Part shown: positions 16,711 through 46,200 of the stretch, one piece after another
How positions within the stretch are numbered: the first letter of the stretch is position 1
How the letters are laid out: each line of letters starts with the position of its first letter
DNA from: Anas platyrhynchos
Taxonomy: Eukaryota; Chordata; Aves; Anseriformes; Anatidae
Length of the DNA: 64,000 nucleotides
Assembly (NCBI RefSeq): GCF_047663525.1
Contig: NC_092604.1
Coordinates: 14,405,001-14,469,000, forward strand
Direction of reading: 5' to 3'
Notes under the pieces: model-generated
Seen by the model: only the letters and a program-made list of their open reading frames with translations
Database searches by the model: none
Told to the model about the DNA's origin: nothing
Made by a program: the position numbers and the translations under genes

Positions 16711-18027
16711 ATGATACACAGTGGAAAAAAACATATTTGTACTATTGTGTGTGTTCTTATTTCTGGAATTATTTTCATCTACTCCTGGAAAAGTCATCAG
16801 CTACAAAATAATATATCCAGGAAAATCTTCCCACCAGCAAAAGCTGTCACTCCAGGAGGTCAGCTCTGTAGGGGAAAACCTGCCAAAAATACAATAACGC
16901 CATTAGAAGATAACAGAACTTTTATTATATCCCCATACTTTGATGACAGAGAAGGCAAAGTCACTCGCGTGATTGGGATTGTTCACCATGAAGATGTAAA
17001 AGAACTTTACTGCTGGTTTTGCTGCCAGCCCCATAGTGAAATACAAGTGACCAGCTCAGAGATCGATGTTCACTCAGATAGATTTGGATTCCCTTATGGT
17101 GCAGCAGATATAGTTTGTGTGGAACCTGAAAACTGCGATCCAACACATGTATCAATTCATCAGTCTCCGCATGGAAATATTGACCAGCTACCAAGGTTTG
17201 AAATTAAAAACCGCAAGGCTGAGACCTTCTCTGTTGACTTCACTGTATGCATCTCTGCCATGTTTGGAAATTACAACAATGTCTTACAGTTTATACAAAG
17301 TATGGAAATGTACAAGATTCTTGGGGTACAGAAAGTTGTAGTCTATAAGAACAGCTGCAGCCAGCTGATGGAGAAAGTCTTGAAGTTTTATATGAAAGAA
17401 GGAACTGTGGAGATCATTCCTTGGCCAATAAACTCATATCTCAAGGTGTCCTCTAAATGGCACTTTTCTATGGATGCAAAAGACATCGGCTACTATGGAC
17501 AAATCACAGCTCTAAATGACTGTATATACCGTAACATGCAGAGGAGCAGGTTTGTGGTTCTTAATGATGCTGATGAAATAATTCTTCCCCTTAAGCACCC
17601 AGACTGGAAAACGATGATGAGCAGTCTTCAGGAGCAAAATCCAGGGACTGGCATTTTTCTCTTTGAGAACCATATCTTCCCAGAAACCATATCGACTCCT
17701 GTGTTCAATGTTTCATCTTGGAATACCGTGCCAGGTGTTAACATACTACAGCATGTGCACAGAGAACCTGACAGGAAGGAGGTTTTTAATCCCAAAAAAA
17801 TGATAATTGATCCAAGAAGGGTGATTCAGACTTCCGTCCACTCTGTCCTACGCGCTTATGGGACCAGTGTGAATGTTCCAATGGATGTGGCCCTCATTTA
17901 TCACTGTCGGGTACCCCTTCAAGGGAACCTTCCTAAAGAATCCCTCATCAGGGATACGTCACTGTGGAAATATAACTCATCATTAATCATGAATGTCAAC
18001 AAAGTGCTACGTCAAGCAGTCCTGTAA
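16711..18027 (+). CDS. GT92-family beta-1,4-galactosyltransferase-like protein, copy 1 (438 aa)
   Basis: This is an intact single-exon coding sequence. The protein is predicted to be a type II Golgi membrane protein: short basic cytoplasmic tail (GKKH, residues 5-8), one membrane helix at about 9-26, a stem to about 60, then a glycosyltransferase family 92 (DUF23) catalytic domain. Family features seen are YYGQITALNDCIYR at about 261-274, the metal/nucleotide-sugar DxD-type motif D286-A-D288-E in VVLNDADEIILP, and a C-terminal HVHREPDRKE segment near 349-357. Sequons NRT, NVS and NSS are present. GT92 includes C. elegans GALT-1 and the pigeon enzyme that adds beta-1,4-galactose to galactose on N-glycans; that activity is inferred here from family membership. 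From residue 61 onward it is nearly identical to copy 2 at 26776. Vertebrate databases usually list such genes as galt-1-like. Confidence 0.88.
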   Translation: MIHSGKKHICTIVCVLISGIIFIYSWKSHQLQNNISRKIFPPAKAVTPGGQLCRGKPAKNTITPLEDNRTFIISPYFDDREGKVTRVIGIVHHEDVKELYCWFCCQPHSEIQVTSSEIDVHSDRFGFPYGAADIVCVEPENCDPTHVSIHQSPHGNIDQLPRFEIKNRKAETFSVDFTVCISAMFGNYNNVLQFIQSMEMYKILGVQKVVVYKNSCSQLMEKVLKFYMKEGTVEIIPWPINSYLKVSSKWHFSMDAKDIGYYGQITALNDCIYRNMQRSRFVVLNDADEIILPLKHPDWKTMMSSLQEQNPGTGIFLFENHIFPETISTPVFNVSSWNTVPGVNILQHVHREPDRKEVFNPKKMIIDPRRVIQTSVHSVLRAYGTSVNVPMDVALIYHCRVPLQGNLPKESLIRDTSLWKYNSSLIMNVNKVLRQAVL

Positions 18028-18222
18028 GCTCAAAAGCGAAACTTTGTAAGGAGGAAAAGTGGAGAGTTGTCTGTGTGTCAGGGAGGCACTGGATATCATT
18101 CAGAGATCACATTAAAAATCTCTTGCACCTGAAGATTACATCCTGTAATCTTTGTACAATCTTTGGGAGAACAGCCCTTTTATGTACCATCCAAACGTAA
18201 ATGCATTTTAGCTGTGAAATGA
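18028..18222 (+). other. 3'UTR segment shared exactly with GT92 copy 2
   Basis: The 195 bases after the stop match 28072-28266 base for base as far as I can compare, with no indel. Identity ends after GCTGTGAAATGA; copy 1 then reads AGCAAGG and copy 2 reads GATATGG. An ATTAAA at about 18112 could serve as a weak polyadenylation signal. UTR identity across a gene pair with strongly diverged N-termini marks the 3' edge of the homogenised block. Confidence 0.8.
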
Positions 18223-18429
18223 AGCAAGGTATCCAGGGAATCAATTTTCAGAACTGCTTAAAATGTTTTTGATTCAAGAAGGGTGATTTTTTTAATTGTT
18301 TGGCTTTTTGAAAGTACAATGACTTGCTTGTCTTTCTGTTTCATGCATGTTAATTATATGATCTGTCATTTAAATTTGAAGTAGAGCTCTGATCCCACTC
18401 CAACAAGGTATAGCACTGTTGTGGTCTCT

Positions 18430-19470
18430 CGTTTGCAGTTGCGCTCTCTTTGATGTTCATTCCCGGGATGCTGGTGTGGGAGCATGTCCCGGTGCACGGC
18501 ATCTGGACCAGGGCAGACTGCGCTGCGGGGACGGGCCTGGCGCGGGATGGGCAAGCCCTGTTCGGCCCGGCACTTCTCCAGACGATTGGGCAGACCGGCG
18601 GCCCCGTTTTGCTCCCGGGACCGGTGCTGGCCGAGACACGGCCCCGCCCGTGTCAGCGTCCTGGGACTGGCCTCCGCGTAACCCAGGCTTGCAGGGAGCC
18701 ACCCCGATGAATGCCCCGGCGAACCTCCGGAGGTGAGGGGAACGAAGGCATTTCGCCAGGACCGGCCAGAGGCACAAGCGGTGCGGCGCTCGCCGCAGTG
18801 ATCTGGCCGGCTGCCTGGAGCCCTGCTCCGCTGGAGCGGCTGCCCGGTGGCCCTCGCGGCCCGCCGATACCGGCGCCGTGCGCGGCGCCCCGCGTGTGGC
18901 GGCGCCAGAGCGGGCCGGCGCCCCGCGACCCCAGCCCCGCGCGAGCGGTGCTGTGGAGTGCGGAGTCTGCTCCACGCTGGTCGGCGGGGGTGGGGGCGCA
19001 AGAACGGGAGCGAGCGCGGCAGGGGCCCTGCCGGTGGCTCGTCTAGTGCCGCAGCCGCTCACGGGGCGTCCCGCGGGGCGGGGGCGAGCCGCGCCTCTCG
19101 CTGCCCCGCCCGCAGCTGCCGCACCTTCCCAGGTGGGAGGTGAAGGGGCCAGGCGACCCCGCCTTTCCTGGGGCTGCGGAGACGGAGGCTCTGGCGTAGC
19201 CGCCACGGAGGTAATAGCTGCTGGTTTCGGTGTCGCGAGTTTGGGGGCAGGAAGGGGGACAGAGCTCCGCTAGCGCCGGCGCTCCGCCGTGGTTCAGCTT
19301 CGCGCCGTGCTGCGTTTACAGTCGTGCCGGCAGCGACGCTCCGGCGTCAGCCTGCGCTAGGAAAGGCGAACCTACGGGACGAGGACCGGAGGCAGCAGGG
19401 AGAGGGGCGTGTTGCTGTCGGATATTTGGTAAACTGCTGGGCACAGTGAGGGTGTCAGGCTGCAGCGCCC
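18430..19470. promoter_or_regulatory. CpG island between the two GT92 genes
   Basis: About 1 kb is extremely GC-rich and dense in CpG, against AT-rich DNA on both sides. GC-box-like GGGGCGGGG, CCCCGCCC and GGGGCGTCC runs occur, for example near 18640 and 19070-19110. No long ORF in it resembles a known protein; the 249-codon minus-strand ORF is a by-product of high GC. The simplest reading is a promoter with a non-coding first exon serving copy 2, whose coding exon has a 3' splice site ending at 26715. Possible 5' splice sites on the plus strand are GGAG/GTAATA near 19209 and GCAA/GTAAGA near 19552. It lies only about 400 bp past the stop of copy 1, so an antisense or independent transcript is also possible. 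Confidence 0.65.
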
Positions 19471-19737
19471 GCTTGGGATCCTGTAACTGGCATCACTTGC
19501 AAAAGAGACTCGCCATGCTCAGGATTTTTATTTCCACCCACAAAAGAGCAAGTAAGATATCGGTCAGCTATAACATCATTTTGGGGTACTGATGTTGGCC
19601 TCTGGATGGTAAGTTTGAGGTGTTTATTAATTGTAAAACACAATTTTTGAAGTCTCTATCTGAATGCACTACAAGCATGGGAGTTTAATTTTAGATTTAA
19701 AAAATGCATAACTTCTTGAAGGAATGGTTTCAGTGTG

Positions 19738-20787
19738 TGTTGTGGGTTAACCCTGCGTATTGGGTTTACATGGCAGGGGCTTTGGGGGTGGTGTTGGTGG
19801 AGAGGTCTACAAGGGTGGCCTCTCTGAGCAGAGTCCAGAAGCTGCCCCATGTCAGATAAGAGCCAGCTCCAGTTGGCATCAAAAGAGACCCATCGCTGGC
19901 CTGAGCTGAGTCAGTGAGCAATGCTGGTTGTGTCTCTGTGAGAGTGTATTTAAGAAAGGGAAAAACAAACAACAAAAAAACTGCCGCACAACAGCAGCTG
20001 TCAGAGAGGAGTGAGAAACAGCCCTGCATACACCAACATCAGTGAAAAAGGAGGGCAGGGGCTACTCCAGGCTCCACAGCAGAACTTCCCCTGCAGCCTG
20101 TGGAGAGGACCATGGTGGAGCAGATTGTCCCCTGGCAGCCCATGGAGGAGCCCAAGGTGGAGCTGGTGAATATGTCCTGAAGGAGGCTGTGGCCCACAGA
20201 GAGCACCTGCCAAAGCAGATTCCAGGCTGGACCTGTAGCCTGTGGAGAGGAGTCGACGCAGTAGCAGGTGATCTGGCAGGAGCTGCCACTCCTGCAGAAT
20301 CCCTGTTGCAGCAGTTTGCTCCTGAAAAATGGATCCTATGGTACAGACCCATATAGGACAGTTCTCGAAGCATCTGTCTGTGGGAATCCCATGTAGGATT
20401 AGTTCAGGAAGGATGGCATCCTATGGCAGGGACCCCATGCTGGAGCAGAGGGGATGTGTTGTGGACTGACTGTAGCCCCAGTTCCCTGGTCCCCTGTACC
20501 ACTTGAGGGGAGGACATAGAAGAGGGTGGATGGGGGGGGAAATGGTTTTAGTTTGCTTTTAGTTTCTCACTGTTCTGGTCTGGTAGTGATAGGCAATAAA
20601 TTATTTTAATCTCCCTATGCCAAGTTTATTTTGCCTGTGACAATAATGGGTGAGGGACCTTCCTGTCCTTATCTCAACCCTTGAGCCTCTTCCATCATAT
20701 TTTTTCACCCTTTTTCTTTGAGGAGGGGGAGTGAGAGAGTGGCTGTGGTGGAGTTCAGCTGTCCAACAGGGTAAAACCACCACAACC
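19738..20787 (+). mobile_element. Avian LTR, GC-rich internal repeat type
   Basis: It starts TGTTGTGGGTTAACCC and ends near GTAAAACCACCACAAC, an inverted-repeat-like pair of LTR ends. The interior has loosely repeated units of about 35-40 bp built on GTGGAGAGGACCATGGTGG and CCTGGCAGCCCATGG (about 20085-20460). An AATAAA at about 20596 is followed by a U5-like GCCTGTGACAATAATGGGTGAG segment, which sets the orientation as plus. I recognise this as a common bird LTR with a repeat-bearing body. No internal retroviral genes adjoin. Confidence 0.75.
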
Positions 20788-21335
20788 TGGTAGGCAGCAG
20801 GGCCCCACACAGCCACTTCTTACTCATCCCACCACCCCCAGTAGGATGGGGAAATGAAGCAGAAGGGCAAAAATGAGAAAACACGTGGGTTGCATTAAAG
20901 ACAGTTTAATGGATATTGCAAAGCTGCATGAACAAGCAATACAAAACAAGGAATTCATTCACTACTTTCCATCAGCAGACAGGTGTTCAGCCATTTATGG
21001 AAAAGACTGGCCTCTTTACACCTAACAGTTGAGAAGATGAACACCATAACCCAAAGTGTTCTCCCCCTCCTTTCCTCTAGCTTCTTCCTTTTGTTGGTTT
21101 GGTTCAGCTCTCTCATCTGTGTCCACTCCAAGCTTCTTGTGTACCCTCAGACTACTCACAGGGACCCAATGTGTGAAGCAGAAAAAGCCTTGACCCTGTG
21201 TAAGCACTGTTCAGCAGTAGCTAAAACATTGTGTGTTATTAACACTGTTTTGGTCACAAATAGCACCATATGAGATGCAAATAAGAAAATTAACTCCCTT
21301 CCAGCCAAAACCAATACAGTGATAAAAACAATAAG
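20788..21335. mobile_element. Avian LTR, same family as the element at 1-530, abutting the preceding LTR
   Basis: It contains AGGATGGGGAAATGAAG, a GACAGTTTAATGG block, CAAGGAATTCATTCACTAC, GTGTAAGCACTGTTCAGCAGT, and a terminal AAGAAAATTAACTCCC...CCAAAACCAATACAG, which matches the layout of the LTR at 1-530. Its first roughly 20 bases are missing or fused into the end of the preceding LTR. The TATA/CRE region is deleted or strongly diverged compared with the first copy. Confidence 0.65.
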
Positions 21336-24300
21336 TTGAAACAACACTCTTTAAATACTGTCATGCAACTTTTATTTTACCTGACCTATTTCTGTTCAAA
21401 GGATACAAAGTCTAATTGTTTACAATGGGTTTATGGGTGTATGGCAGATTTTTTGTGTGTGTACAGGGACATGTGTGCTTGACAAGTCTCATGGCTCAAA
21501 CTAAGTTAATGGAATTACTCTCTGGTTCACCTTCATTGCTTTTAAAATAGAAATTGCCAGTTTAATTCTTCAAGAGCAATATTCTAGCAACAGTGAAATA
21601 ATACTATCATCAGTTTAACCCTTAAAAAATTATTCTTCTGACTTTGGATCATGTAAGATCATGGAATGCCAGAACTCTGGCATTTGAAAGAGAAGAAGCT
21701 GAACTATCAAAAGTTTAGTGACAGAATCCAGATTAAGATGGCAAAATTATTGTTAGTCTTTGGAATTTTTATTTAAGCACTGTTGGTATGTGTGGTTGCT
21801 TTTGGCAAAGCCATAAAGCAAAGAAGAGGGAATAAATTTTATGAAAAACAATAAATTAATAAAGCTATCCATTAATAGTAGCTTGCTTTCAGTTAAACCC
21901 CAAAGAAGCCAAGTTTTAGGCTGTGTAGTGTTCCTCTACTTCTGATGCTAATACTGTTTATTAGTGACTGAAATTTTGTAATCACATCTGTCAGCTGACC
22001 CCTGAAATAGATTTATTTTGCCACCCTCCACCTCTGCCCCACCCCATTTTGAGAGGTAGAAGAGTAAGGTGAGAATTTTAAAAACAAACAAAAAAACAAC
22101 CACCCTTAATATAGATGTCTTTGTGAAGATACTGAAATGAGCAGGATAAAAGATCTTCACCTGTCTCAATACAAAGAAAATAAATTAAGGAGGAAAGACA
22201 CAACACAGGGAAGATGTGGGTGAGATTAATAATGATCTGTGAAGGGCTGTTGAACTAAATTAGCTCTTTGTTCCACATATTAGTAAGGATAATGCTAATT
22301 GTGGAGACTTCAGGAAAATAAGGTCTGAAAATAGGAGTTGTACTGCAAAGGTAAAAACAACACTCCATTTAGAGGCCAGTATTGAATAATTTCCATTACA
22401 AAATTCTAAGATAGACAAGTTACTGAAGAACCAGTGACAGGTGTTTAATAAATATGTTGTGATCATATTGGTACAATGTGGCAAAGAAAGCACAAGTAGT
22501 TCCCTTTTTTAGGAAGGAAAAAAAAAAAAAAAGACTATTTAAGTGTGTGGAAGTTTCTAAGTGCAATCTTATCACACACAGGGTTTTAGAGCATTTTTAT
22601 TTTTATTATTTTATTTTTATCTTTTATTTTTTTTGAGGACTGTAAGTAAAGAGATAAAGAGAAATGTAATTAATTTAGTCAGCTGGGATAGACGCTCTTT
22701 ATTACAACTTTGCAGCAGAAGAAAGCATGTTGTGTAACTGCAGTTGGCTGGAAAACTGAGTCATGACAAGCTCAGATGTATCAGTCCAATGTGATGTGTG
22801 TGCAAAAAAAAAAAAGTAGTCTTAGCACATATTAAGAAAGAATATATCCAGTATGTGAGGGCTTGCAACTCTCATTTACAAATGTATTTCTGATCACCTG
22901 TGCTAGAGAGGAACTGAAACTGGACCAACTGTGCAAAAGCAACTGATCAGGGAAGAATGCTTCTTATAAGAAGAAACTAGAACATCCTGCCTTATTTAAT
23001 GAAAAAAGTGTTAAAAGTGTAGATTAGGAGGGGATATGACTGCAGTCCATAAATGTAGGGAGGAAGAAAGGCTTTTTGCTCTTAATGGGAATACTGAAAA
23101 AGAACAATTTAGTGTGAAGTAGTCATTGATACCATTAGCTTAATTTAGTATTAAAGCAAATCTGTATGATTTGTATCATATTCTACTTGAATACTAATTG
23201 GAATTAAAGTAAAAAAATGAATTAATTATTATTATTAAAAGAAAACAAGCTCTTTAAAATACTCTGGATACATATTTTTGAAGTTAAAATTTACCATGTG
23301 CTCTCAGTAGTGAGAGAATATAAAAAATGCACATTTCCTCATTAATCTGACTTCATGTATTTCCTGACTAGATTTCTGTTCTATTAATTTCAGGAGGTAA
23401 AAATTCATGAGTCACATATCAGGAAAACTGTGAATTTAACTCCTAAATATTTATTTTCTTTAAGATTCAGTTCTCTGGTGTGTCTTGACTTTTATATTTT
23501 GCTCTTTGTGTCTGCTTCTAGAAACTGCTGTTGTTTCAGATCTCTCTCACACTTTGTCATCTGAATCTGTTTTTGCCTATCTTAATTAAGCCTATAGTAC
23601 TTTACTGAAAAAAATGTACATTACTGAAAAAAAATCAAACAAAACCAATTATAGAGTATATTTTTAAAGCTCTCTTTAAGTATGCATGCGAACCACAGAT
23701 ATATCAACATGCATGATTAATTTCCATAAGAAAACCAATTGGCTTTAAAATACCTATGTGCCTAGGTTTGATTTGCTTGGACAACTCCATATTCAAGTTT
23801 GTAATGTAAAATAAGTTCTTGGGAAGCAACTGTATGCTTTGCTCAAGAGAAGGAAAACTTGTTTTTCTGGTAGGTGTGGCCACTATTATGCACATTAAAG
23901 AACACTAGTCATTTGAAGTAGAATGTGTTGGCATGTGTCTTAGGTATTGTACCAACTTTTTCTTCTCCTCAGTATTGTTCTGTATAGAACATTTCTTGCA
24001 GATTATCTTAAAAAAAAAAAAAAAAAGTGCTTTTATCTGATGAGAATAAACAATTAGTAGATACATTTTAGCAAAAAAAAAAAATCAGTTGTTGAGCAGA
24101 ACAAAACTTCACTCAGGTGTCTGCTTTAAAAGGTACTTTTTCTTTCAGATGTTCACTATTCAAAACAAAATTGAAACGATAACTTTTTGTTGTCCATTTA
24201 TAGTCAGCAAAAGAAGAAGAAATAACAGGTAATAAACGGCTTCTATACTTTTAATGATGATATGTTGGGATATTTATTAAAAACTAATTAGCCTATAAGA

Positions 24301-26775
24301 GTGAACAATATTTTAAGAAATAAATAAGATTGACAGAAAGACAAACTGTGTTGTAAGGCTGCTAAAGCATATAACAGTTTGGGAATAAGAACACTAAATG
24401 CTTCAGGGAAATTTCTTGGCTGTTTTCAAAATGTTTGATAAAGAGACACATCAAATTTGAGTTTTTCTCAATCACAAATCTTCATCACTGAATTGCATAA
24501 CTGTAGCAGGCTCTTAATCATGTATTTAATTGCAGTTCTGCTCTAAATTATAAGGACTTCCATGGGGGATTCTCCACCTCATATTCAGAACGGAGTCAGT
24601 ATTGTCAGTATGGTCTGCTGCTGCTGTTCTGCTTTCTGAGTAGTGAAAGACAGTGAGCTTTTTGATGCCCTGTGACAGTTCTGCTCTGCAAAGAAGTTTC
24701 TTGATAGCTATAAAAGTATAACATAAAAAATACCAGCCTTGGCAAATCGGGCACTTTAAGGTTTTTATTGTGAATACATCTCTCCCGTGCTTTTTGAGGA
24801 AAGGACAATTGGGAAAATTCTGCACACAATTCTGAAGGCTTGGGCAATTATTTTTTTCCTTGGAGACACAGAAGCTAGATTGCTATACTAAGAAGCTAGA
24901 TTTTTATTATTATTATTATTTATTTTTTCCCCCTCTGTCTAGAAAGCACTGTCTTTAAGCAGAAAAACAGACCATAGGGGAATTTTTCAAGCCAAACAGT
25001 AAAGTTGCTAGAGCATTTAGGGACTTCCAAAGCTGTGAAGTTGCTGAGTGTGGTAACTGGATCAAAACTATGAATTTATGTGTTTAGGTACTTTCTAGTT
25101 CTCTTTTTTGCATTTCTTTAAACATGATAGTATTTTGTTCCATCATAAAATAATATTGAACTAGATGCTCTCAAAATAGATCTAGGCAATATGTGAAATG
25201 TGAAAAAAAAAGTGTGAAATAATAGGTGTAATTATTATTTTACAATAGACTGAGTAATATGCTATGGAAAAAGTATTGTTAGAGATCTAGCACTTTCAGA
25301 AGATGCCAGATCCCTCCAAAAATGCAAGTGATTTTTATTAAGATCCTTGAGAAGAAAATGGAAGGATAAGAAGTAGGAGAGTCTTCTAATATCTACTAAA
25401 CCTATGGCATTGGTACTTATTTTTTCTATAAATAATACACATGGAAATCTGTCTCTTTTATTTATTTGTTTGTTTGCTTATGAACAGCTAGCTTTTTGCA
25501 GTAATAACTGGGCCTGTAGATACATTTTCTTCGTCTTATGCAATAGGATTGGTTTATTCTATCTTGGCATTTTATCCCACTCTTCTTGCTGGAATTCAGG
25601 GATATTTTTTTTCTACCAGTCTAGTTTTCTGGCCTAACATTAATATGATTAATCTGTGTCATGCTTCTTCGAAGAATCATTGCAGCACAAGCAGGCCTTT
25701 GAAGAGACTTGCCGTCACCTTACTATTTGTGGATCGCATCTGGATGGCTAAAGGTAAATTTATAAGGAAAAATGTAATTTTAGCTCCATTTGCAGAAATT
25801 ACTGATTGAGAGTGCCATGGGCTGCCAGTCATATGTTAACACTTGCTCACAGTAGAGTGCTGCAAGAGACTTTGGCCAGCTAGATGCTCAGAGATGCATC
25901 TGTCCCTGTAGCAGCAGAAGATCAAGAGCTGACCCCTCCCCAGCCATGCTAGGAGCAGTACCAGCATTAATGCAGTGTCAGAAGACACAGATCTCTGGTA
26001 ATAGTAATAATATGAGGCAGCCTTCCCTGCAAGCTCTGCCTTGTGCAGTGCTAAGTAGTGTAGAGCTGGTAACTGAGAAGCTAAGATTTTTTTCACCCCC
26101 CAGCTATACATTCGCTTGTCTTCTGATAAATTGTACAAACTGACCTTCCTCTGTATGTATTGCCTCATTTGTGGTGAAACACAAGTTAGGGAATTTACAC
26201 ATTATAGACTATATATGGACCATCATGTGTAATAATCCCTGATTGATATATTTATTCTCTGATCAATTCTGCATATATTTCATTTATATGTCTGCCCCTT
26301 ACTTTGTGAGAAGGCCAACTGAGTTCAGTTCGTGTGTCATCTGCATGTATACTACGTAGATTTTTTTTTTTTTTGCTTTAAAAATTATGTACTATTTAAT
26401 GTTCTAAAAATATTCTTTATGAAAAAATAATGCATAATGGCTCCCTGTTCTCCAATATATACACCTCTATCATATTTTTTCACATCTGGTACCCAAAGAA
26501 CCCTGCATTAACAAAAATTATTCCAAACATCTGAAATATAGGTGCATTCAGAGTGTCACAGACAGTACCAGCCATTCATTTAAAGTTTTTTTTTTTTTGT
26601 TTTTTCTTCTGCACAGTGACAGAGATTTGTCCCCCTCCCCAATATTGTTTCCAAAATTCTTCAGCAATGAACATGAGTCAATATTATCTTATTCTAAATA
26701 TTTTCTTTCCTGCAGATACAGCAGCATAAACTGCAAGGACAAAGAAATTTGCATCTACATTTAGATACATTCAAA
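21336..26775. other. AT-rich interval upstream of GT92 copy 2, probable 5'UTR intron
   Basis: No coding exon, RNA gene or recognisable transposon is evident. There are A runs near 22518-22533, 22805-22815 and 24010-24026. The right end holds a strong 3' splice site, TTTCTTTCCTGCAG, ending at 26715, followed by 60 bases of 5'UTR and the ATG at 26776. If the CpG island at 18430-19470 is the promoter, most of this interval is the first intron. Confidence 0.5.
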
Positions 26776-28071
26776 ATGTTTTGTGGTGGGAAAAAATCAT
26801 ACTTTGCTGCCACTGTGTGCATTATTACTCTAACTTCAATGGTCACATTTTCATATATTAGATTACAGAGACTTGCTCACCTGCCAAAAATAATACAGGA
26901 AGGTAGAAGATGTAGAGGGGAAATTGCAAATAAAACAATAACGCCATTAAAGGATAACAGAACTTTTATTATATCCCCATACTTTGATGACAGAGAAGGC
27001 AAAGTCACTCGCGTGATTGGGATTGTTCACCATGAAGATGTAAAAGAACTTTACTGCTGGTTTTGCTGCCAGCCCCATGGAAAGATATATGTATCAAAAG
27101 CAAAAATTGATGTTCACTCAGATAGATTTGGATTCCCTTATGGTGCAGCAGATATAGTTTGTGTGGAACCTGAAAACTGCGATCCAACACATGTATCAAT
27201 TCATCAGTCTCCGCATGGAAATATTGACCAGCTACCAAGGTTTGAAATTAAAAACCGCAAGGCTGAGACCTTCTCTGTTGACTTCACTGTATGCATCTCT
27301 GCCATGTTTGGAAATTACAACAATGTCTTACAGTTTATACAAAGTATGGAAATGTACAAGATTCTTGGGGTACAGAAAGTTGTAGTCTATAAGAACAGCT
27401 GCAGCCAGCTGATGGAGAAAGTCTTGAAGTTTTATATGAAAGAAGGAACTGTGGAGATCATTCCTTGGCCAATAAACTCATACCTCAAGGTGTCCTCTAA
27501 ATGGCACTTCATGCAGGATGGAACACACATCGGCTACTATGGACAAATCACAGCTCTAAATGACTGTATATACCGTAACATGCAGAGGAGCAGGTTTGTG
27601 GTTCTTAATGATGCTGATGAAATAATTCTTCCCCTTAAGCATCCAGACTGGAAAACGATGATGAGCAGTCTTCAGGAGCAAAATCCAGGGACTGGCATTT
27701 TTCTCTTTGAGAACCATATCTTCCCAGAAACCATATCGACTCCTGTGTTCAATGTTTCATCTTGGAATACCGTGCCAGGTGTTAACATACTACAGCATGT
27801 GCACAGAGAACCTGACAGGAAGGAGGTGATCAATCCCAAAAAAATGATAATTGATCCAAGAAGGGTGTTTCAGACTTCCGTCCACTCTGTCCTACGCGCT
27901 TATGGGACCAGTGTGAATGTTCCAATGGATGTGGCCCTCATTTATCACTGTCGGGTACCCCTTCAAGGGAACCTTCCTAAAGAATCCCTCATCAGGGATA
28001 CGTCACTGTGGAAATATAACTCATCATTAATCATGAATGTCAACAAAGTGCTACGTCAAGCAGTCCTGTAA
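26776..28071 (+). CDS. GT92-family beta-1,4-galactosyltransferase-like protein, copy 2 (431 aa)
   Basis: This is an intact single-exon coding sequence. The frame is open upstream to a TTG at 26749, but the first ATG is at 26776; I chose it because it gives a short basic tail (GGKK) followed by a membrane helix at about residues 8-28, as in copy 1. The stem is followed by the GT92 domain with the same YYGQITALNDC and NDADEIILP (DxD) motifs. The first 50 or so residues are clearly diverged from copy 1. The rest differs only at three residue clusters (copy 1 numbering 65, 109-118 and 253-258) and at two single sites, 359 and 372, where F and I are swapped. Likely role by family: Golgi galactosyltransferase extending N-glycan galactose. 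The identity of this block with copy 1 means short reads and probes will not separate the two genes well. Confidence 0.88.
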   Translation: MFCGGKKSYFAATVCIITLTSMVTFSYIRLQRLAHLPKIIQEGRRCRGEIANKTITPLKDNRTFIISPYFDDREGKVTRVIGIVHHEDVKELYCWFCCQPHGKIYVSKAKIDVHSDRFGFPYGAADIVCVEPENCDPTHVSIHQSPHGNIDQLPRFEIKNRKAETFSVDFTVCISAMFGNYNNVLQFIQSMEMYKILGVQKVVVYKNSCSQLMEKVLKFYMKEGTVEIIPWPINSYLKVSSKWHFMQDGTHIGYYGQITALNDCIYRNMQRSRFVVLNDADEIILPLKHPDWKTMMSSLQEQNPGTGIFLFENHIFPETISTPVFNVSSWNTVPGVNILQHVHREPDRKEVINPKKMIIDPRRVFQTSVHSVLRAYGTSVNVPMDVALIYHCRVPLQGNLPKESLIRDTSLWKYNSSLIMNVNKVLRQAVL

Positions 28072-31000
28072 GCTCAAAAGCGAAACTTTGTAAGGAGGAA
28101 AAGTGGAGAGTTGTCTGTGTGTCAGGGAGGCACTGGATATCATTCAGAGATCACATTAAAAATCTCTTGCACCTGAAGATTACATCCTGTAATCTTTGTA
28201 CAATCTTTGGGAGAACAGCCCTTTTATGTACCATCCAAACGTAAATGCATTTTAGCTGTGAAATGAGATATGGTACCTTGTAAAAATTGGCTGAGTGCTG
28301 ATGAAGAGTTGGGTTCCTCAGATGAAGTCTGTGCTGCAACCTTCTTAGATGGAAGAGCTGAGGCGTAGTGAGATGAGTGCTTTTACCTGTCCCTAACTAT
28401 AAAAGGATATTATTAAATGCATAGGAAATGAACATGCAGAAATTAGAATAAATACTGATTTCCAGCTTTCTTTTTCTTTTGTCACCTTCCTATATGTGTT
28501 ACCATGTACAAGAAACCTGCCTGAAGAATGAATGTATGTTTGGCTCTTTGTATCTCTGAAGAACTGGGTGGATTAAAAAAATACATCTGTATTTAGCAAT
28601 GCTTATTAAGTAATAGCATGGGACAACATCTGCCAGATGAATAGCTACATTGAAATTAACACTGCAGTTCATTAAAAATCTCAGACAGGATGAGAAAACA
28701 TATCAGCTACAGCACTAGAATTGTCACCTATTAAATGAGTCGCTTTTTAAGGGAAACAGGAACTTTTAGCAAAACCCTAAGCCATTTAATGAGTGCAAGG
28801 ATCAATACAGATGGTATTACCTCTTCTGGAAAAAAATATGAGTTTGCTTTAAACTAAAAAGAATAAAATAGTCTCTCTCAACTGATTTAAATAATGTTAT
28901 GATCCATTTGCATTTTTTTTTTACCTACGTACAAAAAAAGTAACTACAGTGTTTAGCAGTAAAACTAACGCTTAATTCTTGCAGTTCCTATGTCATGATT
29001 TGCACCACGTTTTTATGCACCACGTTATATAAGAAAATGCATTGTGAAAAATAACCAAGCAGAAATTACCTGTTTCAGTAATGGGGGGGTGGAGGGGAAG
29101 GGAGGTTTTGGTAATAATTTCAAAAAGTATTATTGGAAATAGAATAGGTTTTGTTAAAGTGTTAATATATTGCAATACTAAACATAGTTGGAGTTATGCT
29201 AAGTCAAAAAGCTCTTTGACTGTTTTTTTTTTTTTTTTTTTTTTTTTTGTGTGACCTGTAACTTTAAGAAGTCCATTTTTGCTACCCAGAGCTTTTATGA
29301 GTTAGTAAGAATGTGCTGTGTCTCGTTGGAGAGCTTTAAAACAGAGGGAAGGTATATAGCCTGATGTTGATGAAAAAAATAGGTGTCTGTGAACTGAAGA
29401 CTATTTCGTCAGAATAATTGAAGGGAAAAAGGACCGCTTATGATACATGATAACTTTGGTATGTGATCGTTTTTTTGTTCTTTTCCCAGCACCTTAAAGC
29501 CTCTTAACAAACTGTTTCTTTGTTCAGCAAAATTAGCAGATGATTTTGCTATTTTATGTGGTGGGGTGAGTTTTTTTGTGTTCCTGCCTTATGTTGGTAT
29601 AAAGGTAGAGAAGACACTTTTTTTTCCCCCCAATCCCTATCTAAAAAGGAAAAAAAAAAAAAGTAAAATGTATCATTCATTTCTATTGAATGGTCAGATA
29701 GGAAGGAGAAAAAAAATATATGCTCACTGTACTTTTACAATTTCAGTCATTTTTCATTTTTGCTAAACCCCGGTAAGCTCATTGTACTACAGCTACTGAT
29801 CTGGCAATATCCTGGAACTTTCCTGTGAAGGGGCAGAAGTATTAGTCTGATGTGAGAGAGAGCAGGAGATATGTGTGGGAGTAGGCTTTCATTTATTTAT
29901 CTTCTATGCCAAAATCATATTTTAATTCTTTCATCAGTTTTATGGTTGCACATACCTCTGAAGGAGCTCTGTCATGAGTTGCTTAGGTTCGGGTGGAACT
30001 TTTACTTGGAAGCCTTCAAGAGTCAGAGTGTAAGTAAATGCCTGCTTGCTAATTATGTTTAAAATAAACATCAGCTGCCTTGTATAGGCTAAAAGTTTTG
30101 TTTTTTTTTCTCTCTCTCTCTCTTTCTAGTAAAACTAAAAGGGTAGAACAGCAGTATACTCTGTACTGGATGCTGCCTGTCATACATTTCTGCTTGCACA
30201 CTCTGGCACAATGCTGAGAAGAATTTAGTGCTTGGCAAGAGGTCCATTGAGAATTATGGATTCATAATTTAGAAGGGTCAGCTGGAAGTCTCCATTCCAA
30301 CTCCCTGCTCAAAGGAGGGTAAGGAAGCAGGTGTTCTTCGGGTTTTTGTTTAGGTTAGCTAAACACACAACCTCTCTGGGCTACCTGTTGTAGTGTTAAA
30401 CTGCCCTCACAGTGGAGAGCATATTTTCATTAAAGCTAGCCAGAACTCTTATTGCACAGTTTGTGACCATTGGCCCTTATCTTGCTGCAAGATGCTGGAA
30501 TGTCTGATTTTGTCTTCTCTACACCATGTTAACAGATAGCTGGTGACTGTAATAGTTCATACCAACTTTTCCACCCCCAGCCCTCCCTTCTCACGTATTC
30601 TGTCTGGAAGGTTGAATTCAGTTTTCACAGGTTTTCAGACATCTTGTGCTTCAGCTCGCTGTCCATCTCTGCAGCCTCTCACTGGACCTGTTCCAATGCA
30701 TAATTGTCTATTTTGTACTGGAGAGCTCAACACTGAATGTGGTTGCAGATGTTCTCTTGAATGTTGAACATAAGTTAAGAATCTCTTCCCTTGAACTACC
30801 AGCTATGTACTTGGTAGAATGTTAGTGTACAGTTGGCCTTCTGTGTCATAAGGGCATACTACTGATTAATGTTCAATTTGCTGTACAATAGCACCCCCGG
30901 GTCCATTCCTGTAAAGCCATTGAGTTGTCTCCAGCTATCCCTTTGTGTAGGATGACTCTCAGATGCAGAATAGTGCATTTGCTTTGGTTAAACCCAAGAC

Positions 31001-33249: not shown

Positions 33250-36200
33250 TCAGCCATGTTCTTTCCATAACACCAAATGGATACTGTGGTCTGGCATACT
33301 GGTGGCAAAAACCAAGCCCATATCATTTTGGCCATTTAATCCATTTAACCAAGACATTTCACCAGCTAAAAAACTTGAACCTCTCTTTGATTTTCTGTAC
33401 TCCGGTAGAGGCCAGCGGCTTATCAATTTTTCTGTCCTCAAGTCCATTATATACAGGTATCTGTTATCAAATAGTAGAGCAAATATCTCTCCAAAGCCCA
33501 GCAAGGACACGTTTGAGAAGTCAGGAGGCTTGATAACCCTGGAAGATAAAAGTGTTGTTAGAAACTCTGTCACTACACAGTCATGAACCAGCATTATTAA
33601 AACAAATTCTTATGTGTCTACAGAGAGGAAGTATCTAAACTCATCTTTTCTAAATTATTCAAGAAGAACTAGATGAAAATTTTTCAAATCAAGGAAGTGA
33701 GCACTCAAGTCAGGCCTGTGGTTTCAGTGTAGGCTTTCTGCATTCAGGACAGACACTTCTAAAGATAAATAAATGTTAAGGTTTGAAAGGGATTCTGCAC
33801 AGCAGAAGAAAAAAGAAGTCAATTTCCAGATATACACACAAGAGCAGATGTACTTGTATTTTACAGAAAATTTTCATAGGGATTTCACACCTAAATGTCT
33901 ATAAAAAGGTACAAGGTCTCATACTATTCTTTTGACCACTCTTTCAAAAGTTGGAAATAAAGCACAGAAAGGTCTTTTTGTGACAATACAATAAATCATT
34001 CAGCACTGGTCCTTACAAGAATGTTGCTTTACTGACCCTTTATGTAAGTTAAATATTTTTACTTTAGGGAGAAATAACTGAATATATTAGTTCCACTAAA
34101 CCTTTGGGATTTTGTTGCCTTAATAAACACAACTTGAACAAAAATTAAAGAGGATGTTTTCCACAGCTGACTGAGTGTTTGATCATAGCATTACATAAAG
34201 CACAGAACTAAGGCACAAAAACATATGGAGATGAAAAACTGTTCTCAGCAGTGAGAGAAAATCTTTCTCTTTTGAAGAAGCAGCTCTCCTGAAGTAGATC
34301 TTCCTACAGTAGGTACTCTTCCAATATTCGTGACATTTCAATTGAGTCTGCTAACAGTTTTAGAATGCACTTTTTTGATAAGTTACAATCTTTGATGACA
34401 CCATTTCCAACAGACAGAACCTCGTTCTCTTTTTTGAAACAGAATACTTGATCCTTTTTTGCAGTCCCATTGATTTTACTGTCATTCCACACTGTTATTG
34501 AGAATAACAGATTTCAGTTCAGTAGTCCTATATAAGGGAAAAGTGTCTTTTTAATACCTTGTACTGTCTAATGACCTGCAGAAATGGCCTTCTGGTTTGC
34601 TGCAGAGCAATTTGGGTAGCAACATTAGTCACTAGTTTTATGTTCACAACTACAGCAATAAAGTCTGATTTAAGTCTATTTTGAAAATCTGTAGCTCATG
34701 TATTGAAAATAAGAGGAGTAGTTAGTGGCCCGAAAGCAAAACAGCAATCAAATGGTTGGTATTAACAGGTGATAAATTACAACAAAATCTGGTCAATACA
34801 AACAGAATGAAACCAAGCCAAGCCAAGCCTCCCTCCATCGTATTTGAAGTCCTGGAAGTTAGGTGAAGTCCCTGGTAACTGGAAAAAAGGAAACATCACT
34901 CCCATTTTTAGAAAGGGTAGAAAAAGAGGACTCGGGGAACTACAGACCGGTGAGCCTCACTTCTGTGCCTGGGAGGATCACGGAAAAGATCCTCCTGGAA
35001 GCAATGTCAAGGCACATGCAAGACAAAGAGTTATTCCAAGAGACCCAGCATGGCTTCACCAAGCATAAATCATGCCTGACCAATCTGGTGGCCTCCTACG
35101 ATGGAGTGACTGCATCAGTTGACAAAGGAAAACCAACTGATGTCATCTGCCTGGACTTCTGTAAGGCCTTTGACATGGTCCCACATGACATCCTGATCTT
35201 CAGCTTGGAGAGCTACAGATTTGAAAGGTGGACCTTTCAGTGGATAAGGAATTGGCTTGAGGGTCGCACCCAGAGAGTGGTGGTCAATGGCTCCATGTCT
35301 GGGTGGAGTCTGTTGATGAGTGATGTCCCTCAAGAGTTTATCCTGGGACTGGTACTGTTTAATATCTTTATCAGTGACATAGAAAATGGGATTGAGTGCA
35401 CCCTTAGCAAATTTGCAATGACACCAAGTTGAGTGGTGCAGTTGATACCAAAGAGGGAACGGATGCCATCCAAAGGGACCTGGACAAGCTAGAAAAGTGG
35501 GCCCATTTGAGCCGCATGAGGTTCAACAAGTCCAAGTGCAAGGTGCTGCACCTGGGTCAGGGAAATCCCAGACATGAGACTGGGAAAACTCATTGAGAGC
35601 AGCCTTGCAGAGGACTTGGTAGTTCTAGCGGACAAAAAGCTTGACACGAGCCAGCAACGTGCGCTTGCAGCCCAGAAGGCCAAGTACAAGGATGTGGATC
35701 TGTTAGAATGGGTCCAGTGGAAGGCCACAAAGCTGATCAGAGGGCTGGAGCACCCCTCCTGTGAAGAAAGGCTGAGAGAGCTGGGGCTGTTCAGCCTAAA
35801 GAAGAGAAGGCTCCAGGGTGACCTTATTGCAACCTTTAAGTACTTCAAGGGGACTTAAAAAGATGGAGAACAAATTCCCGCTTTGTTTAGTAACGATAGG
35901 ACAAGGGGGAATGGCTTTAAATTAAAAGAGGGGAGATTTAGATTAAAGGTTAGGAAGAAATTCTTCACTCAGAGGGTGGTGAGGCACTGGTTGCCCAGAG
36001 AAGTTGTGGATGCCCCATCCCTGGAGGTGTTCCAGACTAGGCTGGATGAGGCCCTGGGCAACTTGATCTAGTGGGTGGCATCCCTGCCCATGGCATGGGG
36101 GTTGGAACTAGATGATCTTAAAGGTCCCTTCCAACCCAAGCCATTTGATGATTCTATGAATATGTGTGAAGAAAGATGTAATTCAAAAGGATCTTGATAA

Positions 36201-40970: not shown

Positions 40971-42229
40971 AAGGTTATGGAAAAATTTACCTGTGATACA
41001 TCAAAATACTGTATTAGTTCTATTCAGAAAGCAAGGTAAGCATCACATCTTTATTATTGGTACATCAGTATTCCATTGGTTAAAGCATAGACTGAAGTAA
41101 CCAAACAAAACATAAAATATTCATGAGGCTAGTAAAGAGCATTTGCACAAACTTTGAACTATTGTCTGACCTGTATAAGACTTAGAAGTTAGCTGTACAG
41201 AGCAAGCGCATGTTAGCGTTCATTATGAATATTTACATCTTTCTTGTTACAGGTTAACATTTTTAAGTTCTGAATCCAGTAAGGGTTGATTCAAGTTTTA
41301 AACCTACTACAGCAAATAAACACTGTCTTACAGTTTACTCATGGTTTAACTCAAAAAGGGAAGAGAACAAAACATACAGAGGGATAAGAAGCTAGTTACT
41401 GACAGAATTTATTCAGACTTTTGTCCTGAACTACTTTATGGGAAAGAGAAAAAAAAAAAAGTTAGCTGCTTTATTTTTAAAGAAGATACAAAGATATGTC
41501 TGGAGAATTGTATTGAAGAATGTTAGTCATCTTTTGTATCTCTCTGACCTCTTTAATTTTTTCCCTATTTTCCAGTTTATTTCCAATGAACAGAATTAAC
41601 CATGAAACCGAAGGCTTCAAATGGTACTTCTTAAACTCTGTGATCTGTAAGCATTTATACTATGCTGTAGCATTCTCAGGTTTCTAAAATATGTTTGAAA
41701 CATCGGGCAAACAGTTAAAAAGCTTTATTTATATGTATTTTCTTTGGAAGAACTCACTCCACTCATTAGATAACTAACCAAATTTAATTAATAGAAGCTC
41801 CCAAATCCAAAAAACTGAGGAATCTGAATGGGAGCCAAATATGTTTATTTCCGTACAGAAATGTATTTCTGTTTACCTTTACAGAATAAAACCTTAAAGA
41901 ACACCTCTTAACGTGACATAGTAGCACTGAAAAGTAGAGTCTTCACTATGAGAAGCTGCACGTGGCCTGCAGAGAAGTATCAATTCTTGATAAAAACACA
42001 GGAAGGCACTGGGCATTAAATGCACAAAATCAGCTGCTTCTGTCGAGTCACAAGTTCATGCAGTCACTGTTACTGTTGACAGCACGTAAGGGCTTTCCTC
42101 AGCAAGTATGGCAGAAAGCGTAGCTGCTGCTGCTCTATAACAGGCACACGTTCTTTTTAGAACAAACAGTTTTCTAACAGTCTCCCTAACGATAAAAAAT
42201 ACGTGAGCTCTAAGGTGTGTGTTGCATTC

Positions 42230-43230
42230 AGCACATGACGCTACTGCTGAAACCAACAGCAGCCGCGAGGGCCCGGAACCGGCGCTGCGTGCACAGGGCT
42301 CTTTCCTAGGCGATATCTGACAACCGCGCCGCTCCCCCACCCGTTCCCATTTCCCTCCACACGCAAAGCACGGCGAGGACCGGAGACCTTTAGCGCAGCT
42401 GTAGCCACCAGCAGCCGCCTGAACAACTCCCGCTCACCTCAGGTAGCGGCCAGGCGCGGAGCGTCCTTCGGCAGGCAGCCGCCACGGCTCGCTCGGTCCC
42501 CCAGGGCCCGCCAGGGACTGGGGCTTCCCCGCAGCCATCGCTCCCGCAGCAAAGGACAGGCTCCCGCCACTTCCGCAGCCCGCACCACAACCTGCAGGCA
42601 CCCGCGGGAGCGGCCGCCCTCGGATACTGCTGTGCGCCTCAGCCACGCCCGACGCGGGAGGGGAGCCGGGAGGGGGGAGAGGGCGCGGAGAGAAGGCGAG
42701 CCCCGCGCCGTGGCAGCTGCGCCGGGCGAACCGGCCGGCACCCGGAGGGAAGGCACTCGGCCGGAGCCCACGGCTCTCCGTAGTCGGGCAGCTTCCGGCG
42801 CATCCTCCAAACGTCATCGCGCCCCGCTGCCGCACTCCCGCCGCCTCCGTCTGAACTAGGGCTCGCAAGAGGCGCGGTGTCCCTCTGGGGTCGGCGTTGT
42901 CCTGAGGGCCGGTGCCTGCCCGGTAGCGCGGCCGGTTCGTGCAGAAGTGCTTAGGGCTGGCCGCGCCGAGGCGCTCCCCGCGGTAGGGGCATGGCGGCAG
43001 AGGAGTCGCGGTACCTGCTGGGTTACCCGGCTTCGGACGCTTACCAGAGGTGAGCGCGGGCGCTGCGGCCCTGCCGCCTTGGCTGGCTCGGGGACAGCGC
43101 TCACTGCCCTGGAGATAGTCTGCGGCCGGTATCGGGGCGGGGGGCGGGGAACGTGACGGATGCGAGCTCGGGGTCGGGACCTCTGTCAGGCCCGTCTGGG
43201 CATTAGCGGCCCTTGTGAGAGGGGCTGGAG
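42230..43230. promoter_or_regulatory. CpG-island bidirectional promoter of FBXW2 and SLC2A8
   Basis: About 1 kb of GC- and CpG-rich DNA holds the 5' exons of both genes in opposite directions. The FBXW2 first exon donor is at 42438 on the minus strand and the SLC2A8 start codon is at 42991 on the plus strand, so the two starts are within roughly 0.4-0.5 kb. There is no clear TATA box, as expected for CpG-island promoters. A CRE-like ACGTCATCGCG near 42809 and several GC boxes lie between them. Confidence 0.8.
42438..42600 (-). other. FBXW2: FBXW2 5'UTR first exon (upstream edge approximate)
   Basis: On the minus strand, GCTACCTGAG/GTGAGCGG gives a strong 5' splice site, with the last exon base at 42438. 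The matching 3' splice site lies at 40991-40992, giving an exon that starts at 40990, 20 bases before the FBXW2 ATG. The exon lies inside the CpG island. The transcription start is not visible directly; I placed it near 42600 because that is the core of the island. Confidence 0.55.
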
Positions 43231-46200
43231 GCGGCGCGATCCTTCTCATCCGTCTCTTCTGCCTCAGAGTGCAAAACAAGAAGCTGTACCTGGCCACGTT
43301 TGCTGCTGTCTTAGGACCACTTAGCTTTGGCTTCGTGCTAGGCTATAGCTCACCTGTTATACCAGAGCTGAGGGAAATCAATGATCCTACATTAAGATTA
43401 GACAGCAGTCAAGCATCATGGTTTGGGGTAAGTTTCTGTATGATGAAGTGTTACTGTTATGTGATTTCAATTTAAAGTGTAGGTAAAGAAGACACTGTTT
43501 ACATGAGGGGGTCTTACTCCTCTTAAGAACAAGGATAAATGTGGATCTTGTTAATGAGTTTTTTTTTTTTTTTTTTTTTTTTTGTGAGATCAGTGATTGA
43601 TTCAGACTTTTCCTGAATGACGGTGATGTTGTGCTGCGATGACCCTCAATTAGCATATATTAGTAAATGCCCATGTTATTTGAACTTACTTTTGATGATA
43701 AAAAATCTTGTGAGAATTCTCAGCTTTCTCAGTTGAGCCTGTCAGGGGACCACAGAAAATCAACTCTTTAGTAGATTAGGTGTAATCTGTCAACATAGGG
43801 AATATTTGCTTTTGGTACAGGTTGGACTTCAGGTTATTCAAGATAATATTCTTCAGGGCTTTAAAACAGTTTGAAGGCCCGTTTGTGAATGGATGGCTTT
43901 GTAGACAGATTACAAAGGTTACTGCTGTTTTATTTTCTTCGTTGAAAGAGCTTTGTACATGTATGTGATCTGAAAATTATTTGCTGCTCAGTTGTGGTGA
44001 GTAGTGCTTCTTGGCTATGGTTTGATTAGGAATTTAGTGTTTATTTTGGTTTTCAAAACACCTGCATGCTCTTGTACAATTTTCTTTTTCAGAAGCTGCT
44101 ATTTACTTTAAAAACAAAAACAACAAAAATGTTTTTATTTATATGCATATATGTATAAATATATGCATACGTATTTTTAAACTTCTTTTTTTGAAGTCTG
44201 TAGTAACATTAGGAGCTGCTGCTGGAGGAATACTGGGAGGCTATCTTGTGGATAGAGTTGGGAGAAAGCTGAGTCTAATGCTGTGCTCAATACCGTATGT
44301 CTCTGGATATGTAGTTATTATTTCAGCTCAGAATGTCTGGATGCTTTATTTTGGACGAATACTGACTGGCTTAGCCAGCGGAATTACTTCACTTGTTGTT
44401 CCGGTAAGTAAGGCATTATTTCTGTTGGTGAGTGGTTTGTTTGTTTTATTTGTTTTTAAAGCTTTTCTAGGAGAATGTTTGTTATTTCATAATGTTATCA
44501 TAAGTTGCTTGGATGCAGTCACTAACTCTAGCCTCAGTCTGTGGATTTAAAATAAACTGATTTTTACAGGATCATATTTTTGCATGTTTTTAGTCATGAA
44601 GAAAATACAGAAATGTTTTATTTATTCTAATAGCACTTCTGCATTATGCATTCTTAGTACAGTCATATGATCCTTCAGATTTTTAGTCTGTCCTTACTAT
44701 CTGATTGCTTCTGTTTGTTTTAATATTGTGTAGCTATATCTCTTGAAGTTGGATTTTTGTTTGCTTGTTTTTGCTATTACCATCTACTTCTAATAGTCTT
44801 GTATCTCACCAAACTTCTTAGGTTTTCAAATTAACTATGCTCACTCACTCATTCTAGCGCAATACCAAGCAGTGACTACTCCTTCCATTTAACAGCTGTC
44901 TTTGAAACATTAACTTTTCACATGCATTCAGAAATATCCGTGCACTAGGTTAATGGAAAGAATTCATTCTCTTGTTGTCTTCTTTATTTCTGTATAATTT
45001 GCCTATTGGATCTAGTGGCAGTATGAAATAAGCTATCTAGAATTTCAGAATTCAAGCTTGTTTCTTTTCTGGTGGTTCCAGCATTTCTTGCTTTTGAAGT
45101 AAAAAGCAAACTGAAAATAAAAGGGAAAGGGAAAGAAGTCATCGTGAAGTGCAGAATAAATGTTCAGTTACCAATCTGGATAGTTATAAAAACAAACAAA
45201 CAAAAAAAATATTTAATCAGTGGGATCTAAATTATAATCTTGTACAACGTTCTCCATTGCTGAATGCAATCTGCTGTGCTAATGCCTATGAAAGAACTCT
45301 GTTTTCTTTATGAACGACTGCTTTCTCTTTGTTTCCTGGAGCCAAGCTTTAAGTTCCCGTTTGCAAAGGCATTCATCCACAGCCAACAGTAAAAGATCTA
45401 TATGACTGCAGTGATGAGGGAGGAAAATGTTATCTGTAATACCATGGTTTTGTAGCTGTAAACTATTCCTGACCTAAGGATTACTTATTTTTCTTCTTGA
45501 AAAACTTAAAATTGTAACTTTGGAAAAACAAATGCATCTGTAAACATGAGGGATTTCTCTTCTATGTTTCTGTGTATACTGGTGAGCTGTAGCTGTTGAC
45601 TTAGGATCAGCGTTTTTTTTTTTTTTTTAACGAACTAAAAAATTTAAGTTGTTCCCTAATTTTGGAGGAGATATGTTTGCTGTTCATGTATGTTAAGATG
45701 AGCGACTGTCAGTTGAGGACTTCATGGAGAATGCCAAATACGCAGTCTTTATGTTGAACGAAAAATTTTCAACTTTCATTTGCAAAGAGTTTTATAGGTG
45801 ATGTGGGCCATGTGTTCATACAAGACTGTCCCAAGCACCAGAATGCTTTTGTTGTTGATATGGCTAACAAAAGAAGCCCTTACTAATGCAAGTTTGGTCA
45901 TATGTGGGATGCTGATACATCAGCATTTTTCTGTTTTAGGGCCTCCCCTTTCTCCATGTTTTTTCCATAATGCCAATGTGCATTTCTGTGGTAGTACTTT
46001 TCTACTCACGCCATTTTACTTAAGGCTTTTTTTTTTTTAAAGAGGGGAGTCACTAGAAAGTATGTCTGTATTTCAGAAATGAATTACTTCTCAAATTCTT
46101 GATCCAAAACTGGGTAGAAGTAATTAGATTTTTCTCCTTGTTTTAGGTATATATATCTGAAATATCTCATACAAAAGTCCGTGGTATGCTTGGCTCTTGT

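Follow-up and report, generated by a model that had tools for sequence, protein, structure and literature searches.

Two tandem GT92 genes and the block they share

The window analysed here is a stretch of 64,000 nucleotides from the duck Anas platyrhynchos (contig NC_092604.1, positions 14,405,001 to 14,469,000 of the forward strand). It contains two GT92 galactosyltransferase-like genes, copy 1 and copy 2, which are arranged head to tail on the + strand with both open reading frames (ORFs) intact (Table 1). Both match the Glyco_transf_92 profile PF01697, scoring 135.5 and 136.4 bits where the cut-off is 23. In each copy, one unbroken ORF runs through tail, membrane helix, stem and catalytic part, and that of copy 2 is open upstream of its ATG, to 26749. 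The N-terminus of copy 1 belongs to type A, like those of 15 of 29 bird representatives, and the copy 2 protein is 95 % identical to a protein of Cygnus olor (P0011). Before 16650 and 26716 there are tracts rich in pyrimidines that end in AG, a hint of a 5' exon further upstream. Judging from family membership, both proteins are probably Golgi GT92 galactosyltransferases.

The fold search gave a clear match to GalS1 (PDB 8d3t, 8d3z), which places the duck proteins in the GT92 fold of a solved enzyme. The sequence profile search for solved structures had no match up to E 0.1, and the single-sequence search of solved structures reached GalS1 only at E 0.4. GalS1 is a plant enzyme, the beta-1,4-galactan synthase of poplar, and is 13-14% identical to the duck proteins; from its name, its substrate is presumably beta-1,4-galactan. 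D286, D288 and E289 are invariant across all 66 rows of an alignment of relatives (A2), and D286/D288 belong to a DxD-type motif (286-288) which we take to be the metal site.

Table 1. Coordinates of the GT92 genes, their shared block, its islands and other features of the window (aa, amino acids; 3'UTR, 3' untranslated region)
Feature	Position	Strand	Remarks
Copy 1, type A, GT92 galactosyltransferase-like gene	16711..18027	+	single coding exon, 438 aa; ORF; PF01697 E 3e-39
Copy 2, type B, GT92 galactosyltransferase-like gene	26776..28071	+	431 aa from ATG at 26776; PF01697 E 1.7e-39
Tail, membrane helix and stem of copy 1, residues 1-61	16711..16893	+	not homogenised; model helix 6-36
Tail, membrane helix and stem of copy 2	26776..26937	+	not homogenised; 50/54 residues same as Cygnus B
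Homogenised block, copy 1 (catalytic region and 195 bp of 3'UTR)	16891..18222	+	32 differences/1332 bp
Homogenised block, copy 2	26935..28266	+	constant offset of 10,044 from copy 1
Codon 66 difference (E in copy 1, K in copy 2)	16906..16908	+	5' edge of block
Island 1, copy 1, residues 109-118	17035..17064	+	15/32 differences; on strand 110-120 of N-terminal beta region
Island 1, copy 2, B-form	27079..27108	+	14 bird B rows differ from copy 2 at <=3/10 residues
Island 2, copy 1, residues 252-258, KD form	17464..17484	+	9/32 differences; loop preceding helix 262-274 and DxD motif
Island 2, copy 2, GTH form	27508..27528	+	partner of 17464..17484
Island 3, copy 1, codons 358-359 (F359)	17782..17787	+	3/32 differences
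Island 3, copy 2 (I359)	27826..27831	+	partner of 17782..17787
Codon 372 difference (I in copy 1, F in copy 2)	17824..17826 vs 27868-27870	+	single paralogue difference
3'UTR portion of block	18028..18222	+	identical to 28072-28266; sharp end
CpG island between the genes	18501..19500	.	GC 0.70-0.75; CpG observed/expected 0.91-0.93; just past block 3' end
Reverse-transcriptase ORF	34863-35429		PF00078
F-box ORF, 181 aa	40428-40970	-	PF12937, E 5e-9
Second CpG island	42001-43500		precedes sugar-transporter ORF
Sugar-transporter ORF	44143-44547	+	PF00083

A preliminary description of this DNA had proposed that the two copies align without indels over 1332 bp at a constant offset, with about 32 differences, nearly all of which lie in a few clusters, and only two isolated silent changes outside them. 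Alignment of the two intervals bears this out, with 0 indels and exactly 32 differences. Under 20-bp linkage, the differences form 7 clusters (16906/16908, 17035-17064 with 15 differences, 17439, 17466-17482 with 9, 17598, 17784-17787 with 3, and 17824). Random placement of 32 positions yields 20.0 clusters on average and never fewer than 11, and 0/20,000 draws reach 7. The changes at 17439 and 17598 are both silent, the 3'UTR within the block has 0/195 differences, and the identical runs between differences measure 126, 374, 26, 115, 185, 36 and 398 bp.

The borders of this identity are sharp and lie near 16891 and 18222, although local alignment widens the block to about 16870-18222, with 97.2% identity over 1353 columns. 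Upstream of it, the copies align only loosely, as had been noted: their 5' coding parts score 93, where shuffled sequence averages 33.8 (standard deviation (s.d.) 8.7, maximum 61 in 500 shuffles), and 15/53 residues of the N-termini are identical, so that these are homologous but diverged. No similarity above shuffled sequence was found in the 300 bp upstream of the ATGs (93 vs 89, s.d. 11; 200 shuffles) or in the 300 bp past 18222 (89 vs 77, s.d. 12; 200 shuffles). The synonymous distance (dS) is 3.1, which is saturated, over the 53 aligned codons of the N-terminus, with a nonsynonymous distance (dN) of 0.64 and a proportion of synonymous differences (pS) of 0.74. For the block outside the islands described below (352 codons of residues 67-438), dS is 0.009 and dN is 0; residues 62-66 were placed in neither class. 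A 20-bp direct repeat (95%), possibly due to chance, connects the coding end of copy 1 (17807-17826) with a site just past the 3' edge of the block (18269-18288).

Conflicting trees of the N-terminal and catalytic parts

Relatives were collected with two whole-protein searches, which found 519 and 657 proteins and of which the best 120 each were listed. A regional search restricted to the N-terminus returned 4 proteins, P0127 being the only new one. The 29 named bird representatives with an N-terminus comprise 15 of type A and 14 of type B. P0022 and P0031 were left out of all counts, and P0021, which has no N-terminus, was left out of the type counts. P0021 and P0028 were left out of the N-terminal and catalytic trees and of the approximately unbiased (AU) and sign tests, and P0040, P0047, P0048, P0049, P0060, P0090, P0099 and the turtle entry P0035 stand outside trees and counts. 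Since each bird row represents one 90% cluster, only Upupa provides an A/B pair from the same species, and every other pair combines proteins of two genera. The sole anseriform A sequence in the sample is copy 1 of the window.

A conflict between N-terminal and catalytic trees had been predicted and was found: the A/B label changes once in the N-terminal tree and 10 times in the catalytic tree. The single change appears in every one of 200 bootstrap trees (branch support 89/94); the N-terminal tree covers 28 birds, the 2 window copies and 5 reptiles and was built from 57 columns, and the program warns of few columns and a long Turnix branch. The 10 changes in the catalytic tree without islands compare with a shuffled mean of 10.4, and 264/500 shuffles are as low. 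Mixed A/B clades are supported for both window copies with Cygnus B (98/94), for Crypturellus A with Eudromia B (99/92), for Upupa A and B with Rhinopomastus B (100/97), for parrots (100/99) and for passerines (98/95). A single clade of A sequences is rejected for the catalytic part by the AU test (p = 0.0001). Thus, in the converted part only, paralogues within a lineage are closer to each other than orthologues between lineages. The most extreme case is the hoopoe Upupa epops, whose A and B proteins (P0005/P0017), presumably encoded on one contig, are identical over residues 67-438, islands included, and agree at 14/54 residues in the N-terminus. This could reflect a complete conversion or an error of annotation or assembly.

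The sequence comparisons therefore lend strong support to gene conversion, with two old tandem GT92 paralogues as the partners. The step in divergence inside one exon, from which the preliminary description had argued for conversion, amounts to a fall in dS from 3.1 to 0.009, and the tree conflict and the AU test agree with it. The earlier account was incomplete in treating the clusters as residual differences of one converted tract, since they are paralogue-specific and as deep as the N-terminus. For this reason, and because other birds have them in part, many conversions that each left the islands untouched are preferred over one event covering the whole block.

Islands of divergence inside the block

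The clusters are best read, from their sequences, as old paralogue-specific islands (residues 109-118, 252-258 and 359) that are partly common to other birds. Island 1 of copy 1 is identical to copy 2 at 3/10 residues and to the A proteins of Crypturellus (P0006) and Penelope (P0003) at 6/10 each. The structure model has a mean predicted local distance difference test (pLDDT) score of 62 over residues 251-260, around island 2 of copy 1. Residue 372 was dropped as a conserved island; among bird rows, F372 occurs elsewhere only in Cuculus B (P0027). It is still within the island sets of the site ranking, trees, AU and sign tests, pair comparisons, residue 359 coupling and dS count.

In age, the islands appear to be similar to the N-terminus and older than the homogenisation, rather than new change in a converted block. 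The 20 island codons (358 and 372 included) have a pS of 0.77 and a dN of 0.56, compared with 0.74 and 0.64 for the N-terminus, although the contrast between islands and the rest is inflated because the islands were picked by their differences. A milder test is the silent change in codons with identical amino acids, which affects 4/12 codons in or beside islands and 2/346 elsewhere (Fisher p 1e-5).

The islands recur in a distant pair of birds. The tinamou proteins Crypturellus A and Eudromia B differ at 33/372 residues, and 13 of these differences fall within the 19 island residues defined in the window (372 included; hypergeometric p 3e-11). They share 3/10 residues in island 1 and 2/7 in island 2, which are the same counts as for the window pair. 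When 377 sites were ranked by the permutation z of their association with type A or B in the 29 non-window bird rows, residues 359 (z 7.0), 257 and 258 came first, each with 0/500 permutations as high, where the permutations ignore kinship among rows. Residues 256, 253 and 254 stand within the first eleven as well. At residue 359, 12/15 A rows have F or Y and 11/14 B rows have I. That islands can also be lost is seen in the hoopoe, where islands 2 and 3 are A-like and island 1 is B-like in both copies.

Two states can also be followed beyond birds. The 66-row alignment, which includes 64 of the 126 listed proteins (22 of them from birds), has the KD form of island 2 in 38 rows, the GT form in 26 and neither in 2. 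KD occurs with an aromatic residue 359 in 26 rows and with an aliphatic one in 6, while GT occurs with an aliphatic residue in 16 and an aromatic one in 9, and 9 rows have another letter or form. This coupling is significant in 57 rows (Fisher p 8e-4), in the 34 non-birds (0.035) and in 21 birds with the window excluded (0.024). Of 9 independent pairs taken along starred branches of the catalytic tree, an average of 5.6 agree and 0.1 oppose (median p 0.03, range 0.016-0.375). The 15 squamate-side KD rows group in one clade and the 7 squamate GT rows in another, with support of 100/99 each, and in turtles, birds and frogs the KD and GT states are mixed inside clades. This allows a KD/GT dimorphism older than these tetrapod groups, and repeated switching is also possible. 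A tentative extension, to which we would give somewhat less than even odds, is that the islands are the remnant of a two-state catalytic module (KD with F359 versus GT[HQ] with I359) predating the split of birds, turtles and squamates. Squamates would then keep two paralogue clades, and conversion in turtles and birds would have erased paralogue history nearly everywhere else in the ectodomain, so that few residues carry enzyme identity.

Proposed explanation, alternatives and significance

The preferred explanation is that A and B are old tandem paralogues subject to recurrent conversion, which is opposed by selection at the islands. From the sequences at hand, its probability is put at roughly three in four. 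Repeated non-reciprocal gene conversion would keep the ectodomain exon and the proximal 3'UTR nearly identical within each bird lineage. It would end at about 16890, where the membrane and stem segments are too diverged, and at 18222. Conversions covering residues 109-118, 252-258 or 359 would be purged by selection, and those between islands would become fixed; islands and N-terminus would thereby retain the original divergence while the rest was overwritten. The island residues may give the two enzymes distinct acceptor or partner preferences. Recurrent conversion with purging would account for the identical runs between islands of 6-30 bp, for the age of the islands and for their recurrence. 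What the data show directly is the sequence pattern, the conflict between the trees, how deep the islands have diverged and their return in a tinamou A/B pair; that selection is responsible, that acceptor specificity is what differs, and how long each conversion was and which way it ran are inferred.

Several results weigh against this explanation. The dS values and the run lengths come from a single genome. Of the eleven sites most strongly tied to type, five (339, 210, 366, 283 and 356) fall outside every island. Island 1 is A-like in only 3/15 non-window A rows and B-like in 12/15, and the KD form of island 2 is found in 10/15 A rows and 2/13 B rows, which indicates that islands can be overwritten. 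There is no excess of island differences in the parrot pair Lathamus/Pezoporus (1/14 differences, p 0.53) or in the suboscine pair Sakesphorus/Neopelma (1/24 differences, p 0.73), where only residue 359 of the islands differs. Tree-corrected sign tests of island state against type, with at most 6 pairs, do not reach significance (p >= 0.06), although just 0.0-0.1 pairs on average go in the opposite direction. The states of island 2 and residue 359 were defined after the alignment rows had been viewed, and the coupling has exceptions among the 57 rows (GT with an aromatic residue in 9, KD with an aliphatic one in 6). Moreover, fragments from Pitta (P0048) and Calonectris (P0060) have mixed letters of both island 2 forms around residues 252-258. 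These two fragments look as if recombination or point change had occurred inside the island.

A neutral origin of the islands, in which stretches that are already diverged block heteroduplex formation and escape conversion without functional selection, is unlikely but deserves consideration. Dense mismatches lower conversion, as discussed for GOT1 (PMC3728101), and the N-terminus is itself such a diverged barrier. However, islands of 6-30 bp amid identical runs of 26-398 bp should often be swept along with their flanks, and the same residues are retained in the tinamou pair and the window. Furthermore, islands are not immune to conversion, because they were converted in some lineages (all of them in Upupa, and island 1 wherever the non-window A rows are B-like). 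An artefact of assembly or polishing, in which reads of one copy corrected the other and differences were left only where reads could not map across, could likewise produce near-zero difference with dense residual clusters. It is nevertheless very unlikely, as A and B proteins from other assemblies give the same tree conflict, and both duck copies have unique flanks, their own N-termini and full ORFs.

Mosaic conversion, in which the two copies first became identical and short conversions from a third GT92 gene later restored the islands, is more improbable still. Several GT92 proteins are listed for some squamates, and both forms of island 2 occur in Sphaerodactylus, but a third GT92 stretch was looked for and not found within the 64-kb window, and several exact short events would be required. 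Another scenario, in which the 3' 1.35 kb was recently duplicated onto an older gene and the clusters then changed quickly under positive selection, would fit the observation that most codon changes in the clusters alter amino acids. The clusters also hold saturated silent change and their letters resemble the A and B forms of distant birds, and because of this they predate the homogenisation; on these grounds the duplication was rejected and is given next to no credence. In effect, overwriting the 3' part of an existing gene with a copy would be gene conversion.

The surroundings of the two genes add some context. The CpG island between them may be the promoter or first exon of copy 2. In the B proteins P0023 and P0027 of other birds, the N-terminus is extended by a segment rich in P, G, A and R, which a GC-rich first exon would produce. 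The turtle GT92 entry P0035 carries the name SLC2A8 which, together with the sugar-transporter ORF of the window (a PF00083 match only), suggests a conserved linkage of GT92 and SLC2A8. Two inverted stretches (34863-36157 and 57578-58576) are 76-84% alike and are presumably CR1-type long interspersed element (LINE) copies. No RNA family matched in the window at gathering score.

The process is already known from opsin, RH and GOT1 genes, and the present pair is a clean new case of it. Innan (2003) and Teshima and Innan (2008) are said to have described divergent islands that selection maintains in the face of conversion. The duck pair has the narrow divergence peaks older than homogenisation of this type (dN 0.56 and pS 0.77 versus dN 0 and dS 0.009). 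Human red/green opsins and RHCE/RHD are likewise linked paralogues that are nearly identical over most of the gene, with narrow divergence peaks at presumed selected sites kept by selection against conversion (PMC3924837). In contrast to these, the duck pair has several islands within one exon, which jointly match the unconverted N-terminus in divergence and are found again in a palaeognath pair. The GOT1p1/GOT1p2 genes of the copepod Tigriopus californicus, for which conversion and a neutral alternative are discussed, are also linked intronless coding sequences with exon-internal islands that are sometimes lost by conversion (PMC3728101). Whereas that case concerns populations of one species, the duck islands are partly shared between bird orders.

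With respect to function, Suzuki and Yamamoto reportedly characterised in 2010 a pigeon UDP-galactose:beta-galactoside beta1,4-galactosyltransferase, beta4GalT(Gal), of family GT92. Several birds have Gal-beta1-4-Gal on N-glycans through beta4GalT(Gal) activity, and it is present on duck immunoglobulin G (IgG) and absent in chicken (PMC3602017). The pigeon enzyme resembles the duck proteins as an avian galactosyltransferase of CAZy family GT92, although the passages on it describe no two paralogues (PMC3602017, PMC3522684). Two pigeon Gb3/CD77 synthase (A4GALT) paralogues are, like the duck pair, very similar avian glycosyltransferases, with 93% nucleotide identity and differing acceptor preferences; they belong to A4GALT instead, and gene conversion has 0 occurrences in the main text (PMC8466213). 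Because of the Gal-beta1-4-Gal N-glycans of birds and the differing acceptor preferences of the pigeon A4GALT paralogues, a split in acceptor or tissue between A and B is our preferred guess. Among the titles listed (10 of 880 in one of the searches), which is a weak basis, no publication joining GT92 and gene conversion was found.

Conversion has acted here as a natural mutagenesis screen, in that nearly all ectodomain sequence that can be shared between the two enzymes is shared. Perhaps 15 residues together with the membrane and stem part may define the difference between A and B, which provides a short list of candidates for GT92 specificity. The gene-conversion field gains a case with islands that recur in a distant bird lineage, and ordinary gene trees will mis-assign the orthology of these GT92 genes in birds.

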